NCBI RefSeq assembly: GCF_002893095.1
Contig: NZ_PKQQ01000002.1
Span: forward strand, 124,001-188,000
DNA: 64,000 nucleotides
Source of the DNA: Stenotrophomonas sp. VV52
Lineage (GTDB): Bacteria > Pseudomonadota > Gammaproteobacteria > Xanthomonadales > Xanthomonadaceae
Direction: 5' to 3'
Below, in pieces: positions 36,765-45,770 of this stretch; within the stretch, counting starts at the first letter, position 1; each line of letters starts with the position of its first letter. The translations under genes were made by a program, and so were the position numbers. The notes under the pieces were generated by a model. It was not told the origin of the DNA. It saw nothing but the letters and a program-made list of their open reading frames with translations, and did not search any database.

Positions 36765-37400
36765 ATGAACACTGCAACTGCTGAAGTCACCCGCGAATTC
36801 GGCCCGTTTGCCGGCGCCGACGCCGTGCATGGGGTCAGTTTCGACGGCCGCCACGTCTGGGCCGCCACCGGCGCGGCCCTGCTCGCGATCGATCCGGACA
36901 CCGGCCAGACCGTGCGTTCGCTGCCGGTGCCCTGCGACGCCGGTACTGCCTTCGACGGCACGCATCTGTACCAGATCGCCGAAGCCCGGATCGACCGGAT
37001 CGACCCGCAGACCGGCAAGGTACTGGGCTCCATTCCTGCTCCCGGCGGCGGCAACGACTCGGGCATGGCCTGGGCCGACGGCAGTCTCTGGGTTGGGCAG
37101 TACCGCGACCGTCGCATCCATCAGATCGACCCCGACAACGGGCGCGTGATCCGCACGATCGAATCGGATCGCTTCGTCACCGGCGTGACCTGGGTCGACG
37201 GTGAGCTCTGGCATGGCACCGACGACGGCGAGCGCAGCGACATCCGCCGCGTGGACCCCGCCAGCGGCGAGGTGCTGGAGCGGCTGGAGATGCCCGAAGG
37301 CCAGCACGTGAGTGGCCTGGAAGCCGACGGTGCCGGCCTGTTCTATGCCGGCGGCGGGCGCAGCGGCAAACTTCGCGTGGTGCGGCGTCCACGGGCTTAA
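36765..37400 (+). CDS. Small beta-propeller protein (glutamine cyclotransferase/YncE-like)
   Basis: The 211-aa protein has no signal peptide; an AGGAG site precedes ATG 36765. Repeated blades are visible: GVSFDGRHVWAATGAALLAI, DPDTGQTVRSLPVP, GTAFDGTHLYQIAEARIDRI, GMAWADGSLWVGQYRDRRIH, GVTWVDGELWHGTDDGE. This alternation of (D/W)G-(S/H/E)-LW strands and DP-x-TG-x-V turns resembles YncE and glutaminyl cyclotransferase-like propellers. Only about five blades are present, so it may oligomerise or be a partial propeller. It lies 44 bases after the HTH regulator. No catalytic site is recognised. Confidence 0.7.
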   Translation: MNTATAEVTREFGPFAGADAVHGVSFDGRHVWAATGAALLAIDPDTGQTVRSLPVPCDAGTAFDGTHLYQIAEARIDRIDPQTGKVLGSIPAPGGGNDSGMAWADGSLWVGQYRDRRIHQIDPDNGRVIRTIESDRFVTGVTWVDGELWHGTDDGERSDIRRVDPASGEVLERLEMPEGQHVSGLEADGAGLFYAGGGRSGKLRVVRRPRA

Positions 37401-37403
37401 CGT

Positions 37404-37421
37404 GACTCATTCTCATTTGGA
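37404..37421. promoter_or_regulatory. Fur-box-like sequence before the ECF sigma gene
   Basis: On the minus strand the segment reads AATGAGAATGAG, matching 9 of 12 positions of the Fur core AATGATAATCAT. It is about 20 bases before the sigma gene, where iron-bound Fur would block its transcription. The match is partial, so this is a candidate. Confidence 0.45.
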
Positions 37422-37428
37422 GGGTAAG

Positions 37429-37476
37429 ATGCCGCGCCCATGTCGTCCAATGCCTCGACCCTCACCGAGCTGCTGA
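37429..37476 (+). other. Short out-of-frame ORF overlapping the sigma-factor start
   Basis: A 15-codon ORF (MPRPCRPMPRPSPSC) begins at an ATG five bases after the only good Shine-Dalgarno sequence here (GGAGG, 37419-37423) and ends at TGA 37474-37476, inside the sigma gene in another frame. The sigma ATG at 37440 is 16 bases from that site. The ORF could be a regulatory overlap, or it may show that the sigma start is unusual. It is unlikely to encode a functional peptide. Confidence 0.3.
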
Positions 37477-37940
37477 TCCGCGAACGCCCGGCGCTGCTGC
37501 GCCTGGTGCGCCGGATACTGGGCAGCGACAGCAGCGCTGAAGATGTGATCCAGGCCATCTGGTTCAAGGCCCGCGGCGTCGATGGCAGCGTGGCCATCGA
37601 CAACCCGCGGGCCTATCTGTACCGTCTGACCACCAACCTGGCCACCGACCAGGGCCGGAAACGCAGCCGCCAGGCGCGGCTGTTGGCCGACCACTACCTG
37701 TGGGGGCCGGATGAAGTGCTGTCCACGGAAGAACAGGCCATGGCCCAGGACGAGCTGCAGCGCGTGCTGGCCGCCGCCGACCATCTTCCCGAACCGACCC
37801 GCACGATCTTCCGCCTCAACCGGTTGCAGGGGCTGACCCAGGCGGAGATTGCCCGGCGCCGTGGCGTGTCGGTCACCACCGTGGAAAACCATGTGCGGGC
37901 CGCGTTGCAGCGGCTCGCCTGGGCGCGCAGCGGGCGGTAA
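37440..37940 (+). CDS. ECF RNA polymerase sigma factor (FecI type)
   Basis: The 166-aa sigma factor has region 2 (LTELLIRERPALLRLVRRIL...SSAEDVIQAIWFKAR) and region 4 (LPEPTRTIFRLNRLQGLTQAEIARRRGVSVTTVENHVRAAL). The NPRAYLYRLTTNLATDQ segment is characteristic of FecI-group factors used in iron/haem cell-surface signalling. It is followed by a FecR-type gene and an STN-containing receptor, the standard trio. I recall an S. maltophilia haem system named hgbIRBC with this composition, and this may be it. The predicted target promoter, CTTGGGGWWGT-N12-CGTCTT, precedes the next three haem genes on this strand. Upstream lies a Fur-like box. The translational start is awkward because the good ribosome site favours another frame. 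Confidence 0.9.
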   Translation: MSSNASTLTELLIRERPALLRLVRRILGSDSSAEDVIQAIWFKARGVDGSVAIDNPRAYLYRLTTNLATDQGRKRSRQARLLADHYLWGPDEVLSTEEQAMAQDELQRVLAAADHLPEPTRTIFRLNRLQGLTQAEIARRRGVSVTTVENHVRAALQRLAWARSGR

Positions 37941-37950
37941 GGCGCACGGG

Positions 37951-37979
37951 CTTGGGGAAGTGCCGTTCCCACACGTCTT
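37951..37979 (+). promoter_or_regulatory. Predicted ECF-sigma promoter, copy 1 (anti-sigma gene)
   Basis: CTTGGGGAAGT (37951-37961), 12 bases, then CGTCTT (37974-37979). It starts 10 bases after the sigma stop codon and ends 38 bases before the FecR-type ATG. The same element with the same spacing is found at 38982 and 42420. Confidence 0.7.
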
Positions 37980-38017
37980 GATGGTAACGGCGCTGCCACC
38001 GCACCCCTTGCCAGCCA

Positions 38018-38974
38018 ATGAGCCCGCAGAACCTGCCCGACCACCGGACCCAACCCGACTCGCCCGACCTGCTTGCCGAACAGGCGCAGGCGTGGATCGC
38101 GTGGCTGGCGTCCGGCGCGGTCGAACCCGAGCGCATGCAGGCCTTCGAGAAGTGGTTGAAGCAACCCGGCCACCGCCGCGCGTTCGAATACGAACGGCAG
38201 CTGTGGCAGGCGGTGGCGCAGCCCCCGGTGCGCGCCCACCGTGCACCCCGCAGGCGCGCGCCGCGCATCGCGCTGGCGGCAGCAGCGGTGCTCGCCCTGC
38301 TGTGGGTGTCGCCGGACGCGTGGCTGCGCCTGCGCGCCGACCACCGCAGCGGCAGCGAAGTGGTGACACTGGCATTGCCCGACGGCAGCCGCGCGGTGCT
38401 CGATGCCGACTCGGCGATCGCCGTGGACTACGACGACAGCGAGCGCGGCATCCGCCTGCTGCGCGGCCGCGCCTGGTTCGAAGTCGCGCCCGGGCACGCG
38501 CAGCCTTTCCGGGTCCGCGCGCAGGGTGGGGTAGTGGAAGACATCGCCACGGCCTTCGCGGTGGCCGATACCGGACACGGCGTGGACGCCGAAGTGTCGC
38601 AGGGACAGATCCGCGTGGCGGCGACGCCGGAAAGCGGCTGGACCTATCTGCTGGCCGGGCAACGCGCCGGCTTCGCGCGTGGCGGGCAGGTGCTGCGCCA
38701 TGCCGACCTCGCGCCGGACCGGATCGCAGCATGGCGCGAGGGCGAGCTGCTGCTGGATGCGGTGCCGGTGGGCGCGGCGGTCGACCAGATCGCGCGGTAT
38801 CGCGCCGGGCCGACCTTCGTGCGCGGGGACCTGTCGGCGTTGTCGCCGGTCAACGCCGCGCTGCGCGTCGACCAGCCCGAGCAGGCGCTGGACGCGCTCG
38901 CGATGTCGGCCGGCCTGCGCGTCACCCGCCTGCCGCTGGGCGTGGCGATAGTGAGCCGCGAAGCGGCGCACTGA
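38018..38974 (+). CDS. FecR-type anti-sigma/signal transducer
   Basis: This inner membrane regulator transmits the receptor's signal to the sigma factor. It is 318 aa from ATG 38018. The N-terminal cytoplasmic anti-sigma segment (LLAEQAQAWIAWLASGAVEP, then FEKWLKQPGHRRAFEYERQLW) matches the FecR N-terminal DUF4880 pattern. A single membrane helix follows (about residues 87-103, IALAAAAVLALLWVSPDAW). The periplasmic FecR domain includes VVTLALPDGSRAVLDADSAI and RGRAWFEVAPGHAQPF; a C-terminal STN-interacting part ends with LSALSPVNAALRVDQPEQAL. It has its own predicted promoter at 37951-37979, so it can be induced separately from the sigma gene. Confidence 0.92.
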   Translation: MSPQNLPDHRTQPDSPDLLAEQAQAWIAWLASGAVEPERMQAFEKWLKQPGHRRAFEYERQLWQAVAQPPVRAHRAPRRRAPRIALAAAAVLALLWVSPDAWLRLRADHRSGSEVVTLALPDGSRAVLDADSAIAVDYDDSERGIRLLRGRAWFEVAPGHAQPFRVRAQGGVVEDIATAFAVADTGHGVDAEVSQGQIRVAATPESGWTYLLAGQRAGFARGGQVLRHADLAPDRIAAWREGELLLDAVPVGAAVDQIARYRAGPTFVRGDLSALSPVNAALRVDQPEQALDALAMSAGLRVTRLPLGVAIVSREAAH

Positions 38975-38981
38975 AATCGAT

Positions 38982-39010
38982 CTTGGGGATGTACGCCCCG
39001 CACGCGTCTT
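38982..39010 (+). promoter_or_regulatory. Predicted ECF-sigma promoter, copy 2 (TonB receptor)
   Basis: CTTGGGGATGT (38982-38992), 12 bases, then CGTCTT (39005-39010) and ACCC. It lies directly after the FecR-type stop and 98 bases before the receptor ATG. The long leader includes a small CCGCAG/CTGCGG stem. Confidence 0.72.
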
Positions 39011-39108
39011 ACCCCCGAACGTACCCGCCGCCGCCACGTACTTCGCAGCGCCCGCAGTCCCTGCGGGGACGCCGTCTGCACGGCATCGCCCTACCTACAG
39101 GTTTCAAC

Positions 39109-42036
39109 ATGCTTTCCAACTCCCGACCGCGCGCGTTGCCGCGCCCGTCCCGCCTGTGCATCGCCTTGCTGGCGTGCGGCCTGGCCGCTGCACCCGCAGC
39201 GCCGGCGCTGGCCCAGTCCGCCGACAGCGCCGCACTCTCCGCCGTGCAGTCGTTCGACATTCCGGCGCAGCCGCTGGCCGATGCACTGCGCAGCTACATG
39301 CGCCAGTCCGGTGTCCAAGTGGCGTATCCGGCGGCGCTGGCTGAAGGTGCCACCTCCACGGCGGTGCGCGGCACGCTGGATGCGCAGCGCGCGCTGGCGC
39401 AGCTGCTGGACGGCAGCGGGCTGGCCCCGCGCGTGCTCGGCCCGGGTGCGGTCAGCCTTGAACGTGCCACGCGCGGCCAACGCGCCGATGGCGTGATCGT
39501 CACCGACACCCTGCGCGTGGCCGGCGACCAGTCCAGCGCAGAGGGCGGCGACAACGAACGCGCACTGGAGGTGTACCGCAGCAGCGGCTCCAGCGTGTAT
39601 GTCCCGCGTGCGACCATCGAACGCTTTCGCGGCACCTCCACCGCCGACATCGTCAAGGGCGTGGTTGGCGTCACCGCCGGCGATCCGCGCACCGCCAATG
39701 CGCTGGACCTCAACATCCGCGGCATCCAGGGCCAGAGCCGCATTCCGGTCATCATCGACGGCGGCCAGTCGACCATGGACACCTACCGTGGCTACGCCGG
39801 CCAGTCGCAGCGCACCTATCTGGACCCGGATCTCATTTCCAGCCTGACCGTGACCAAGGGCCCCAGCCTTGGCGCCAACGCGTCCGGCGGCATCGGGGGC
39901 GTGGTGGAGATGGAAACGCTGAACATCGGCGACGTGCTGCGCGACGGCCAGGACGCCGGCCTGCGCGTGCGCAGCGGCGTGTCCAACGGCAGCGCCCGCG
40001 GCCTGCCGGCCTACAACGCCGTGCCGCGCACCGACCGCAACAGCCTCGGCGGCCAGTTCTTCAACATCGCCGGCGGCAAGCACTGGGACCGGTTCGACCT
40101 GGTCGCCGCCTACGCCTGGCGCGACACCGGCAACTACTACTCGGGCAAGCACGGCTACGACGACTTCCCGCAGACCCGGCGCACCCTGGCGCCGTTGAAC
40201 CCGCCCAATACCGAAGTGTTCAACACCTCGTCCAAGTCCAACTCGGTGCTGCTCAAGGGCACCTGGCGGATCGACGATGTGCAGACCCTGGAGGCCGGTT
40301 ACCGCCATTACAGCGGTCGCCAGGGCGAGATCATGGCCTCGCAGATCATCCGCGTGGACCGCGACCGCGTGCCGCAGTGGGAGCCGGGCAGCGTCGACCT
40401 GGATGCCTACAACCTGCGCTACCGCTTCAACCCCGGCAACGACATCGTCGACCTCAAGGCCAACCTCTGGTACACCGAGGCCGACAGCCTGATGTACAAC
40501 GGCCTGACCGGCATCACCCCGTGGTACTTCGACCGCCGCACCGAGTGGTACGACGGCCCGACCTTCAACACCGATCCGGGTTACAAGGACGCCTACCGCA
40601 ACGACATGACCCAGAAGCGGTTCGGCCTGGACGTGTCCAACACCACGGTGCTGGTGACCGACAGCGCGGGGCTGTTCACCTTCGACTACGGCCTGGCCTT
40701 CAGCGACGAAGACGTGGGCCCGGGCGAGAACGCGCCGATCAAGCATGACGACCTGATCAACAACCGCTTCCTGCGCAACGCGGCGCGGAAGGAATACAGC
40801 GCAGTCGCGTCGATGAAGTGGCAGCCGGGCGAGCGCTGGGACGTGCTGCTCGGTGGGCGCTTCAGCCGGGTCAGCATCCATGACCGCAACCGCCTGGCCA
40901 CGCCGGACGGCGAGGAGGTGATCGGCCAGTACCGCTACACCCAGCTGCTCAACGGCAACCCGGCGCTGCCGGCGTGGCGCGCGCAGCGCATCGCGATGCT
41001 CAACTGGTACCCGGACGCGAACGGCCAGTTCACCGAAGCCTCGCTGCTGGCCTCGCCGTACAAGAAGGGCACGGTGGCCGACATCACCGGCTGGAATTTC
41101 CACGACGTCACTGCCACCGAAGACCTGGGGGTACCCACCAGTTGGACCTGGTCGCAGCCGATCCGCCGTACCGACCACGCGTTCATGCCCACCGGCAGCG
41201 TCACCTGGCATGCCGACGAAGACACCCTGCTGTACATCAAGTACGCCGAAGGGGTGAAGCTGCCGAGCCTGTTCGAGAGTACGCTGGGCCTGTTCACGGC
41301 GGCCAAGCCGATCGACGGTGAGCTCAAGCCCGAACGCGCCGCAACCTGGGAAGTGGGGGCCAGCACGGTGAAGCACGACCTGTTCGCCGACGGCGACCAG
41401 GCCGCGTTCAAGCTGGCCTACTTCAACACCCGCATCGACGACCTGATCACCCGCGACTACCGCACGCTGTCGGCCGGCTACATCCGCAACATCGACCGCT
41501 TCAAGGTCTCGGGCCTGGAGTTCCAGTCCAGCTACGACGCCGGCAAGGTATTCGCCGATCTGTCGGCGCACTATTACTTCGAGGCCAAGACCTGCGCGCC
41601 GGACATCGCCGCCGAACGCCGCGCCTATGGCGTGCAGCGGAAGATTCCGGAACTGGCCGCGACGCCGGACTGCGTGGACGGTGGCTTCGAGGGCTCCTAC
41701 AGCAACACCCAGAACCCGCCGCGTTACACGGTCAACCTGACCCTGGGTTCGCGCCTGTTCGACCAGCGGCTGAGCTTCGGCACCCGCGTGATCCACAACA
41801 GCGGCCCGATCAGCAAGCTCGACAAGGAATGGAACGTGGGCTTGTCGGCGATCCAGCAGTTGTACCAGCCGGCTACGGTGGTGGACGTGTTCGCCAGCTG
41901 GCAGGCCAGCGGGCAGCTGGCCTTCGACTTCAACGTGGACAACCTGACCGACCGCTATTACCTGGATCCGCTGGCGCTGGGCGTGATGCCGGCGCCGGGC
42001 CGGATCATGCGGCTGGCGGTGACCTGGCGGTATTGA
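39109..42036 (+). CDS. TonB-dependent receptor with STN signalling domain, probable haem/haemophore receptor
   Basis: The receptor is 975 aa from ATG 39109, with a signal peptide ending near PALAQ. An STN domain follows (VQSFDIPAQPLADALRSYMR, QSGVQVAYPAALAEG), which contacts the FecR periplasmic domain. The plug has STADIVKGVVGVTAGDPRTA, IRGIQGQSRIPVIIDG and LDPDLISSLTVTKGPSLGAN; then a 22-strand-type barrel ends AVTWRY. Barrel features such as LLYIKYAEGVKLPSLFESTL resemble the HasR-like group. A haem ligand is inferred from the haem oxygenase sharing the same promoter element. A Cys pair (TCAPD, TPDCVDGG) lies in a late loop. A terminator follows at 42040-42067. Confidence 0.9.
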   Translation: MLSNSRPRALPRPSRLCIALLACGLAAAPAAPALAQSADSAALSAVQSFDIPAQPLADALRSYMRQSGVQVAYPAALAEGATSTAVRGTLDAQRALAQLLDGSGLAPRVLGPGAVSLERATRGQRADGVIVTDTLRVAGDQSSAEGGDNERALEVYRSSGSSVYVPRATIERFRGTSTADIVKGVVGVTAGDPRTANALDLNIRGIQGQSRIPVIIDGGQSTMDTYRGYAGQSQRTYLDPDLISSLTVTKGPSLGANASGGIGGVVEMETLNIGDVLRDGQDAGLRVRSGVSNGSARGLPAYNAVPRTDRNSLGGQFFNIAGGKHWDRFDLVAAYAWRDTGNYYSGKHGYDDFPQTRRTLAPLNPPNTEVFNTSSKSNSVLLKGTWRIDDVQTLEAGYRHYSGRQGEIMASQIIRVDRDRVPQWEPGSVDLDAYNLRYRFNPGNDIVDLKANLWYTEADSLMYNGLTGITPWYFDRRTEWYDGPTFNTDPGYKDAYRNDMTQKRFGLDVSNTTVLVTDSAGLFTFDYGLAFSDEDVGPGENAPIKHDDLINNRFLRNAARKEYSAVASMKWQPGERWDVLLGGRFSRVSIHDRNRLATPDGEEVIGQYRYTQLLNGNPALPAWRAQRIAMLNWYPDANGQFTEASLLASPYKKGTVADITGWNFHDVTATEDLGVPTSWTWSQPIRRTDHAFMPTGSVTWHADEDTLLYIKYAEGVKLPSLFESTLGLFTAAKPIDGELKPERAATWEVGASTVKHDLFADGDQAAFKLAYFNTRIDDLITRDYRTLSAGYIRNIDRFKVSGLEFQSSYDAGKVFADLSAHYYFEAKTCAPDIAAERRAYGVQRKIPELAATPDCVDGGFEGSYSNTQNPPRYTVNLTLGSRLFDQRLSFGTRVIHNSGPISKLDKEWNVGLSAIQQLYQPATVVDVFASWQASGQLAFDFNVDNLTDRYYLDPLALGVMPAPGRIMRLAVTWRY

Positions 42037-42039
42037 TCG

Positions 42040-42067
42040 AATGGGCGCGGCACTCGCCGCGCCCATT
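42040..42067. terminator. Bidirectional terminator between receptor and DUF2789 gene
   Basis: The stem ATGGGCGCGGC/GCCGCGCCCAT with ACTC loop is followed by TTTTCG. It lies between two convergent genes with only 36 bases between their stops. Confidence 0.75.
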
Positions 42068-42072
42068 TTCGT

Positions 42073-42318
42073 TCAGGCCTTGGTCGCGTCCGCGTGCAAC
42101 GCTTCGTTCAACTCATCGACCACGATCGCCCAATCGGCATCTTCCTTCAGCTCTTCGCCCAGGAACTGCCGCTGCGCGTCACTCCAGAAAGGCGCCTCGG
42201 CCAGGGTCACATCGGCTGCCAGCTGATGGTCAAGGATGAATCGGGCAATGGCCTCCTTGCTGGAGTCCAGTCCCAACTGCTCGAACAGGTTGGTCATGCG
42301 CGATTCGGTGGTGTCCAT
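42073..42318 (-). CDS. DUF2789 family small protein
   Basis: The 81-aa protein begins MDTTESRMTNLFEQLGLDSS, the opening usual for DUF2789, and includes EAIARFILDHQLAADVTLAE, APFWSDAQRQFLGEELKEDA and the acidic DWAIVVDELNEALH. There is no signal peptide or membrane segment. The start at 42318 follows family alignment; the ATG just before it (42321) is equally close to the AAGGA ribosome site. Function is unknown. It is placed antisense between the receptor and haem oxygenase genes, so transcription of the haem regulon must either restart at 42420 or cross it. Confidence 0.8.
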   Translation of the reverse strand: MDTTESRMTNLFEQLGLDSSKEAIARFILDHQLAADVTLAEAPFWSDAQRQFLGEELKEDADWAIVVDELNEALHADATKA

Positions 42319-42419
42319 CATGGCAATCCTTGTGGGGCGGAAGAATGCGCCATTATCAACACCCCGGGGTGAGGATGGCATCGCCGGAATGGGGGAGCGG
42401 GCCTGCCGCGGCAATCCGG

Positions 42420-42448
42420 CTTGGGGTAGTCTGCGTGGCAGGCGTCTT
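42420..42448 (+). promoter_or_regulatory. Predicted ECF-sigma promoter, copy 3 (haem oxygenase)
   Basis: CTTGGGGTAGT (42420-42430), 12 bases, then CGTCTT (42443-42448) and ACCC. It ends 52 bases before the haem oxygenase ATG. It matches copies 1 and 2 in both blocks and in spacing. Confidence 0.72.
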
Positions 42449-43116: not shown

Positions 43117-43479
43117 ATGCGTTGGCTCTGGTTCTGCCTCGGCTGGGTGATGGTCGCGCTGGGCGTGATCGGCGCGCTGCTGCCGGTCATGCCGACCACG
43201 ATCTTCCTGATCCTGGCAGTGGGTTGTTTCGCGCGCAGCTCGCCGAAGTTCGAACGAAAGCTGCTGGAGCACCCGCGCTATGGACCATCGCTGCGCGCAT
43301 GGCGCGAGCAGGGCGCGATCAGCCGCAAGGGCAAGGCGTTCGCCGCCGGCGGCATGGCCTTCGGGTTCGTGATGTTTCTGTGGGGCGCGCGGCCATCGTG
43401 GCCGTTGTTGCTGGGGGTCGCGGTGTTTTTCCTGGCCAGCGCGGTTTACGTGCTTTCTCGACCGTCACCAGTGCCCTGA
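43117..43479 (+). CDS. ybaN: YbaN-like inner membrane protein (DUF454)
   Basis: The 120-aa protein begins MRWLWFCLGWVMVALGVIGA and continues LLPVMPTTIFLILAVGCFAR, the DUF454 signature: two hydrophobic helices around a Pro-rich turn. A basic loop (RKLLEHPRYGPSLRAWREQG) and two C-terminal helices follow. It is 28 bases after haem oxygenase, and this suggests co-transcription from the promoter at 42420. The function of DUF454 is not established. A stem CCGCGACG/CGTCGCGG (43489-43513) lies between it and convergent hppA. Confidence 0.85.
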   Translation: MRWLWFCLGWVMVALGVIGALLPVMPTTIFLILAVGCFARSSPKFERKLLEHPRYGPSLRAWREQGAISRKGKAFAAGGMAFGFVMFLWGARPSWPLLLGVAVFFLASAVYVLSRPSPVP

Positions 43480-43524
43480 ACGAACTGCCGCGACGCCCCT
43501 AGGGACGTCGCGGCCCCAAATCCA

Positions 43525-45552
43525 TTACAACAACGGCACCAGCAACAACGCCACGATGTTGATGATCTTGATCAACGGGTTGATCGCCGGCCCCGCCGTG
43601 TCCTTGTACGGATCGCCCACCGTGTCGCCGGTCACCGCGGCTTTGTGCGCTTCACTGCCCTTGCCGCCGAAGTGCCCGTCTTCGATGTACTTCTTCGCGT
43701 TGTCCCAGGCCCCGCCGCCGGTGGTCATCGAAATCGCCACGAACAGGCCGGTCACGATGGTGCCGATCAGCAACCCGCCCAGCGCACGCGGCCCCAGCAG
43801 CAGGCCGACCACCACCGGCACCGCCACCGGCAGCAGCGAGGGCACGATCATTTCGCGGATCGCCGAGCGGGTCAGCATGTCCACCGCGCGGTCGTACTGC
43901 GGCTTGCCGGTACCTTCCATGATCCCTGCGATCTCGCGGAACTGGCGGCGCACTTCCTCCACCACCGCGCCGGCCGCGCGGCCGACTGCTTCCATCGCCA
44001 TCGCGCCGAACAGGTAGGGAATCAACCCACCGATCAGCAACCCGATGATCACCGTGTGGTCGGACAGGTCGAACGCAAACACTTCACCCGGATGCGCGGC
44101 CTGCAGGTTGTGGGTGTAATCGGCAAACAGCACCAGTGCGGCCAGCGCCGCCGACCCGATCGCATACCCCTTGGTCACCGCCTTGGTGGTGTTGCCCACC
44201 GCATCCAGCGGGTCGGTGATGTCGCGGATCTCCGGCGGCAGCTCGGCCATTTCGGCGATGCCACCGGCGTTGTCGGTGATCGGCCCGTACGCATCCAGCG
44301 CCACGATCATGCCCGCCATCGACAGCATCGAAGTGGCGGCGATCGCGATCCCGTACAGCCCACCATGCAGGTGCGCCAGCCAGATCGCCAGGCACACCGC
44401 GATCACCGGCAGCGCGGTAGACTTCATCGACACGCCCAGCCCGGCGATGATGTTGGTGCCATGCCCGGTGGTCGACGCCTGCGCCACGTGCTGCACCGGC
44501 TTGTACTGGGTGCCGGTGTAGTACTCGGTGATCCACACGATCAACCCGGTGAGGATCAGGCCGATCAGCGCGCAGATATACAGGTTCATCGCCCCGTGCG
44601 CGTTGTCGGGCATCAGCTGCCGGGTGATCGGGTAGAACGCGATCGCCGCCAGCACGCCGGACACGATCACGCCCTTGTACAGCGCGCCCATGATCGAGCC
44701 GCCGGGTTTCACCTTGACGAACAGCGCGCCGATGATCGAAGCGATGATCGACACCCCGCCCAGTACCAGCGGATACAGGATCGCGTTGCGACCGGCCTCG
44801 GCGATCATCAGGCTGCCCAGCAGCATGGTGGCGATCACCGTGACCGCATAGGTCTCGAACAGGTCGGCGGCCATGCCGGCGCAGTCGCCGACGTTGTCGC
44901 CCACGTTGTCGGCGATCACCGCCGGGTTGCGCGGGTCGTCTTCGGGAATGCCGGCTTCGACCTTGCCGACCAGGTCCGCGCCGACGTCGGCGCCCTTGGT
45001 GAAGATGCCGCCGCCGAGCCGCGCGAAGATCGAGATCAGCGACGAACCGAACGCCAACCCGACCAGCGCATGCAGCGCCGCGCCGGTGTCCAGCCCCAGC
45101 CGCAGCAGCAGTGCGTAGTAACCGGCCACGCCCAGCAGGCCCAGCCCGACCACCAGCATGCCGGTGATCGCGCCGCCACGGAACGCCACGTCCATGGCCG
45201 CGCTCAGTCCATTGCGCGCGGCTTCGGCGGTGCGCACGTTGGCGCGTACGGACACGTTCATGCCGATGTAGCCGGCCGCGCCGGACAGCACCGCACCGAT
45301 CGCGAAACCGATCGCGGTGTACCAGCTGAGGAAGATCCCGACCAGCACGAACAACACGATGCCGGCGATGCCGATGGTCAGGTATTGGCGGTTGAGGTAG
45401 GCGCGCGCGCCTTCCTGGATGGCGGCGGCGATTTCCTGCATGCGGGCATTGCCGGCCGGTTGCCGGAGGATCCAGCGTGCCGACACGATGCCGTAGAGAA
45501 TCGCAAGGATGGCGCAGAACAGCGCAAGTGAAAGCCCATAACGTTCCAGCAT
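43525..45552 (-). CDS. hppA: Membrane-bound H+-translocating pyrophosphatase, K+-independent type
   Basis: The pump couples PPi hydrolysis to proton transport across the inner membrane. It is 675 aa from ATG 45552 with about 16 hydrophobic helices. Catalytic motifs are [56 protein letters not shown], and near the C-terminus [14 protein letters not shown] and [16 protein letters not shown]. In [20 protein letters not shown] the Lys after GNTT, rather than Ala, is the known marker of K+-independent enzymes. It shares this region with a PPi-type phosphofructokinase, adenylate kinase and soluble pyrophosphatase. The 308-base gap upstream (45553-45860) holds one SMAG copy and no gene that I can see. 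Confidence 0.96.
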
Positions 45553-45770
45553 GTCCCCTCCCGGGTGATGGATGGCATCCAGTCGACGGACGAACCTCAC
45601 CACGCGGGGCACAACGGGCTGCAACGATGGACCAACCCGTTCAGACCGTCCCCGGTCATCAAGCGTGTGGCTTTGTTCAGCAATCCTGGTGCCCCCCGAT
45701 TATGCAGGGAAAACGCCCAAAGCGACCACGCCGACGCGCCAACCGACGCGCCACGCCCCAAACGTCACCG

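Follow-up and report, generated by a model that had tools for sequence, protein, structure and literature searches.

Genes and Repeated Elements at the Locus

The window analyzed in this study, a stretch of 64,000 nucleotides from Stenotrophomonas sp. VV52, contains a FecI-type system together with genes for haem utilization. The FecI/HasI-type ECF sigma factor (37440..37940, forward strand) has Sigma70 regions 2 and 4 only and shows 78-95% identity to its counterparts in 29 named loci. It is adjoined by a FecR-family anti-sigma factor, the HemR orthologue (38018..38974, forward strand), with FecR (PF04773) and DUF4880 domains, for which the nearest solved chain is 6ovk_R. The next gene encodes a TonB-dependent receptor (39109..42036, forward strand) with an STN signalling domain, a plug, and a barrel. 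A DUF2789 gene (PF10982; 42073..42321, reverse strand) lies antisense between the receptor gene and the gene for haem oxygenase (PF01126; 42501..43088, forward strand), whose nearest solved structures are pa-HO 1sk7 and HemO 1j77. The gene for a DUF454 protein (PF04304; 43117..43479, forward strand) follows and probably shares a transcript with the oxygenase gene. In the region 43117-45624, the next gene after DUF454 is on the opposite strand and encodes an H+ pyrophosphatase, and no exbB-exbD-tonB genes adjoin DUF454, unlike in Stenotrophomonas maltophilia D457. Five further sigma-like genes, all distant (25-34% identity), were found in the genome.

The best solved match of the receptor, open over 975 aa, is HasR (E 5.5e-42), and its score against the hemin-receptor model TIGR01785 is 276 bits, under the cut-off of 317. 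HasR contains H189 and H603, which we take to be its two haem-ligand histidines. Both are absent here: the H189 column holds Tyr in all 17 receptors compared, and H603 falls in a gap. In the window receptor the H189 column is occupied by Tyr229. With these histidines missing, haem is a putative ligand; the signal passing through the STN receptor is most likely haem-related.

A Fur-box-like site, matching 16 of 19 bases of a Fur consensus, precedes the sigma gene (37399..37417, forward strand). Of the 29 orthologous loci, 28 have a site scoring at least 13/19 against this consensus ahead of the sigma gene; among 2000 random 125-base stretches drawn from the window, 24 reach this score, some possibly by overlapping 37399..37417. 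At the oxygenase promoter, the best score is 12/19, at the DUF2789 start, and a Fur box in this position, as proposed for S. maltophilia, is thus weak here and was not retained. Just upstream of the Fur-box-like site, a gene at 36765-37397 encodes a protein that weakly matches propeller-type families (PF05096, DUF6923, and DUF5074).

Three copies of a two-part element were found on the forward strand: before the anti-sigma gene (37951-37979), before the receptor gene (38982-39010), and before the oxygenase gene (42420-42448). As the earlier note had described, each of these 29-mers is an exact match to CTTGGGGWWGT-N12-CGTCTT, with 16 bases between CTTGGGG and CGTCTT in every copy and with the blocks kept while the spacers differ; such matches were absent from 100 dinucleotide shuffles of the window. 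All three copies point toward the next gene, at 38 (anti-sigma), 98 (receptor), and 52 (oxygenase) bases from its ATG, within the range of 38-98 given before. The element is non-palindromic, and the CGTC of its downstream block is common in ECF promoters. The three intergenic regions share a block of 6+4 bases with one common spacer of 13-19. None of 5000 shuffled triples shared such a block, and 8 of 5000 random triples taken from the window did, some possibly by overlapping the sites themselves.

The pattern CTTGGGG-N16-CGTCTT was searched across the whole genome (4.43 Mb), a scan that the earlier note had suggested, and three exact copies were found, all at this locus. When up to two mismatches were allowed, 97 sites (37 + 60) were found vs. 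142 (75 + 67) for the reversed pattern; these near-matches, being rarer than the control, represent background. Likewise, up to three mismatches gave 12 sites in the window vs. 17.6 expected.

Distribution of the Element in Related Genomes

The search for the sigma factor yielded 31 loci, 29 of which (L075-L103) were kept as orthologues; two with 24 and 27% identity were dropped. The proposed consensus fits the three copies of the window in full, but its WWGT part is not kept in relatives, where the conserved core is TTGGGG-N16-CGTC, mostly preceded by C. This core was found before the anti-sigma gene in 27 of the 29 orthologous loci exactly and in the remaining two with one mismatch, and before the receptor gene in all 27 loci that reach it. 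For the oxygenase gene, the core is present in 23 of 25 loci, that is, in 23/23 with DUF2789 lying between the receptor and oxygenase genes and in 0/2 without it. The comparison also supports the earlier suggestion that oxygenase and receptor are linked across the antisense gene. The two loci lacking the oxygenase element belong to Luteimonas and Lysobacter, in which the oxygenase gene starts at most about 35 bases after the receptor gene; with oxygenase directly behind the receptor and no DUF2789 gene, a separate promoter is unneeded. In the 29 named loci, the available stretch ahead of the sigma gene has no exact element.

Additionally, a slightly looser pattern was run against another 30 oxygenase loci from the genus, which partly overlap by species with the set of 29; in 28 of them the element lies within 160 bases of the gene start. 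The exceptions are G173, which has no sigma factor, and G211, with one changed base in the -10 block. One-mismatch or shifted copies were observed in L079 and L102 and also in G489, G530, G163, and G211. The core columns carry 1.6 to 2.0 bits and the spacer columns 0.2 to 1.7 bits; conservation is fairly high across the whole oxygenase promoter, which is therefore weaker evidence when taken alone. The receptor gene has a long and steady leader (39011-39108 in the window), the distance from the -10 box to the start being 95-105 bases in 27/27 loci; the Rfam search gave no match at gathering score. One of the orthologous loci, L081, lies on a contig titled Bacillus subtilis, and its locus is of the Stenotrophomonas type (86% sigma identity), so this record looks mislabelled or contaminated.

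The distribution of the element follows that of the sigma factor. At a threshold of E 1e-40, the sigma factor was found in 66 of 91 genomes of the genus and was missing from 25. Matches to TTGGGG-N16-CGTCT average 3.5 per genome with the sigma factor (n=66) and 0.8 without it (n=25), in related genomes of one genus, so that the counts are not independent and the Mann-Whitney value is not a true probability. The reversed-pattern control gives 0.86 and 0.88, respectively. At least three matches occur in 57 of the 66 sigma-bearing genomes vs. 0 of the 25 sigma-less ones; an excess of about three matches per genome is seen only where the sigma factor is present. An oxygenase homologue is encoded in seven sigma-less genomes, of which five were examined. 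In G173 (16 kb read), the sigma, anti-sigma, and receptor genes are absent, DUF2789 and a 91%-identical oxygenase are kept, and the -35 block of the oxygenase gene is TTGCGG instead of TTGGGG, a single case. In the other four, with oxygenases of 55-69% identity, no site with up to one mismatch was found in the stretch examined.

In the order-wide search, with nine candidates scored per genome, the sigma factor was found in at least 16 of 398 genomes, two of them outside the genus. In both of these loci, the element before the receptor gene is exact and the one before the anti-sigma gene has a single mismatch; no oxygenase gene was found within the 12 kb examined. The family-wide pattern search outside the genus gave scattered single matches, and the search of plasmid DNA gave none.

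A wider regulon was also considered. In the window's genome, TTGGGG-N15-17-CGTC was found at 24 sites vs. 39 for the reversed control, 21 of them outside the locus. Fifteen of these 21 lie inside reading frames with a Pfam family above cut-off and are probably coding. The other six (L150, L151, L152, L153, L159, and L164) could not be placed by Pfam on the covering frame; cover by a long frame does not sort sites, as the three real elements lie under long frames too. The fourth match to TTGGGG-N16-CGTCT in the genome (contig 9, L160) is inside an amino acid kinase frame, and similar matches recur in sigma-less genomes, among the matches listed. No fourth target is claimed.

A Paralogous Cassette With Its Own Element

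A paralogous sigma factor, 38-42% identical, was found in 38 of the 91 genomes of the genus; its cassette was not found in the window's genome. In total, 31 paralogous loci were analyzed, including 30 of the loci from these 38 genomes (L182-L211) and one of another genus (L044). A different element, GTGGGC-N16-TGTC, precedes both the anti-sigma and receptor genes in 29 of the 31 loci. Of the remaining two, L203 is a short locus with one copy, and in L044 one copy is exact and another, seen by eye, has a 17-base spacer. The element of the window was absent from all 31 loci. The receptor of the paralogous cassette is also HasR-like, as judged from one receptor tested. Between the two groups of sigma factors, 31 positions differ. 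Alphaproteobacterial relatives located on plasmids show 35-39% identity. The analysis covered two of them, L212 and L213, leaving aside L214-L216, which lack a gene table; only 9-of-10 matches were found, which does not support extending the rule to these relatives, and L212 lacks a receptor gene after the anti-sigma gene.

Known Systems and Recognition of the Elements

On sequence grounds, the sigma factor of the window is the orthologue of the published HemI of S. maltophilia. In D457 and the other named S. maltophilia loci, the sigma factor is 86% identical and the gene order is the same. The HemI-HemR-HemAD system of strain KJ shares with the window the succession of a 166-aa sigma factor, FecR, receptor, 85-aa protein, and oxygenase-hemU, and has a Fur box before the sigma gene (PMC12772443), where the window has its Fur-box-like site. 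It differs in being described as one operon transcribed from a promoter before hemI; in the available part of that report, no HemI consensus or internal promoters are described, and its locus tags for the sigma factor and receptor are assigned inconsistently (PMC12772443). The earlier note knew of no published consensus, and the literature search indeed found none for HemI, although the sigma factor itself was already in print. Overall, the three elements are real and conserved and very probably form a set of ECF promoters; the system is of a known type, its sigma factor is published, and its recognition sequence was not found in print.

According to the same part of the report, hemI is repressed by Fur, growth on hemin requires HemI, and induction of hemU by chelator and hemin needs both HemI and HemP, with no role for HemI at hemA and tonB1 (PMC12772443). 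The 373 bp hemI promoter was insensitive to loss of hemI or hemR (PMC12772443). The element before the HemI-dependent operon, together with its absence upstream of the sigma gene, fits these results. Induction of the orthologous oxygenase operon also requires HemP (PMC11002078; PMC12772443, available part), and HemI is therefore not the only input. Chelator alone raises expression of the operon smlt3896-hemU-exbB2-exbD2-tonB2 about 15-fold, and the combination of chelator and hemin raises it 139-fold; a strain lacking only the oxygenase gene smlt3896 still grows on hemin (PMC11002078). The D457 gene order is oxygenase, DUF454, ExbB, ExbD, and TonB, matching the published operon, so HemU appears to be the DUF454 protein. 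Likely counterparts of HemU/DUF454 (PF04304) are located at 43117-43479 in the window and at 15726-16280 in L083. If HemU is this protein, a family with no assigned function would gain a role in haem use.

Among other known systems, HasI-HasS-HasR of Serratia marcescens has the receptor that the window receptor resembles and a Fur-controlled sigma factor; HasI is reported to act on the anti-sigma and receptor genes and not on its own (PMC9249621). In the window, a shared element precedes both of these genes. The HasI -35 element, TTTACGGGTTT, differs from TTGGGG, and HasISR has a hemophore (PMC9249621); the HasR haem histidines are absent from the window receptor. A hemophore gene hasA is reported to be absent from S. 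maltophilia K279a (PMC9241770). FecI-FecR-FecA of Escherichia coli similarly has a sigma factor, FecR-type regulator, STN receptor, and Fur box before the sigma gene, but is described with a single promoter, before fecA, the anti-sigma gene not being controlled (PMC9249621). HxuI of Pseudomonas aeruginosa is also a haem-linked ECF sigma factor, whose targets include a haem receptor; its MEME motif, MTGAAWRACDWKKTTTWKCADTCGCRWWT, is unlike the element of the window, and self-regulation was reported (PMC8768829).

The three elements very probably serve as promoters for the neighbouring FecI/HasI-type sigma factor, as proposed in the earlier note. This assignment is well supported by the conserved placement, the co-occurrence with the sigma factor, the distinct element of the paralogue, and the reported HemI dependence of the oxygenase operon (PMC12772443). 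With high confidence, we propose that this HemI-type factor reads all three elements and, itself controlled by Fur, drives the anti-sigma gene, the receptor gene, and the oxygenase-DUF454 unit. RNA polymerase carrying the sigma factor of 37440-37940 would read the -35 block TTGGGG, the 16-base spacer, and the -10 block CGTC; we infer both this direct recognition and the transcription starts. With plentiful iron, Fur would repress the sigma gene; under iron scarcity, the factor would be made and held under control of the FecR-type anti-sigma factor until activated by a signal, most likely haem-related, via the STN receptor. The active factor would then transcribe its own anti-sigma gene, which may provide negative feedback, the receptor gene, for more sensing and uptake, and the oxygenase-DUF454 unit, for haem use, but not its own gene. 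Induction of the anti-sigma gene apart from the sigma gene, also claimed earlier, is predicted by the element and stands as such a prediction; no terminator was found in the gap between the two genes, so read-through is possible and may also supply the anti-sigma factor.

Two published observations bear on this scheme. The KJ hemI transcript climbs further with hemin, by a route left unexplained in the available text (PMC12772443), which, with no element before hemI, counts against the explanation. The KJ cassette's own receptor was reported as truncated, whereas the window receptor is open over its full length, yet hemin induces hemU via HemI in KJ (PMC12772443); the simple model leaves this unexplained.

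The element could instead be an operator of a DNA-binding activator, such as HemP or another haem regulator, with the genes transcribed by another sigma factor. The reported need for HemP alongside HemI in hemU induction (PMC12772443) speaks for such a role, which we nevertheless consider very improbable: the element is non-palindromic, has two blocks with CGTC downstream, and tracks the presence of the sigma factor, and HemP also represses KJ hemA, where HemI plays no part (PMC12772443). Recognition by another ECF sigma factor, for which the five distant sigma-like genes would be the candidates, is less probable still, because match numbers rise only in genomes with the adjacent-type sigma factor, the elements sit in that factor's own cassette, and the paralogous cassette has a different one. 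The probability of a chance or mobile repeat without function is negligible; nothing was found in its favour, and it is contradicted by the conserved placement, the preservation of blocks between differing spacers, and the results with the shuffled window and shuffled triples.

Reading by the adjacent sigma factor would give a haem sigma factor that was published only recently its recognition sequence, along with a short list of targets: three exact sites in this genome, all at this locus. The published lack of autoregulation is predicted to hold for the sigma factor's own promoter only, with the circuit feeding back through the anti-sigma factor and receptor. HemI is thus predicted to act at internal promoters ahead of hemR and the receptor gene, as HasI does with hasS. 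Taken with the paralogous cassette, we find it more probable than not that sigma-driven expression of the anti-sigma gene, described as an exception for HasI/hasS, is the rule for HasR-type cassettes of Stenotrophomonas and its relatives. Two paralogous sigma factors, about 40% identical and each with its own element before the anti-sigma and receptor genes, would then operate as self-limiting switches side by side without cross-talk. With slightly different elements in the same places, they form a natural pair for finding the sigma residues that set promoter choice.
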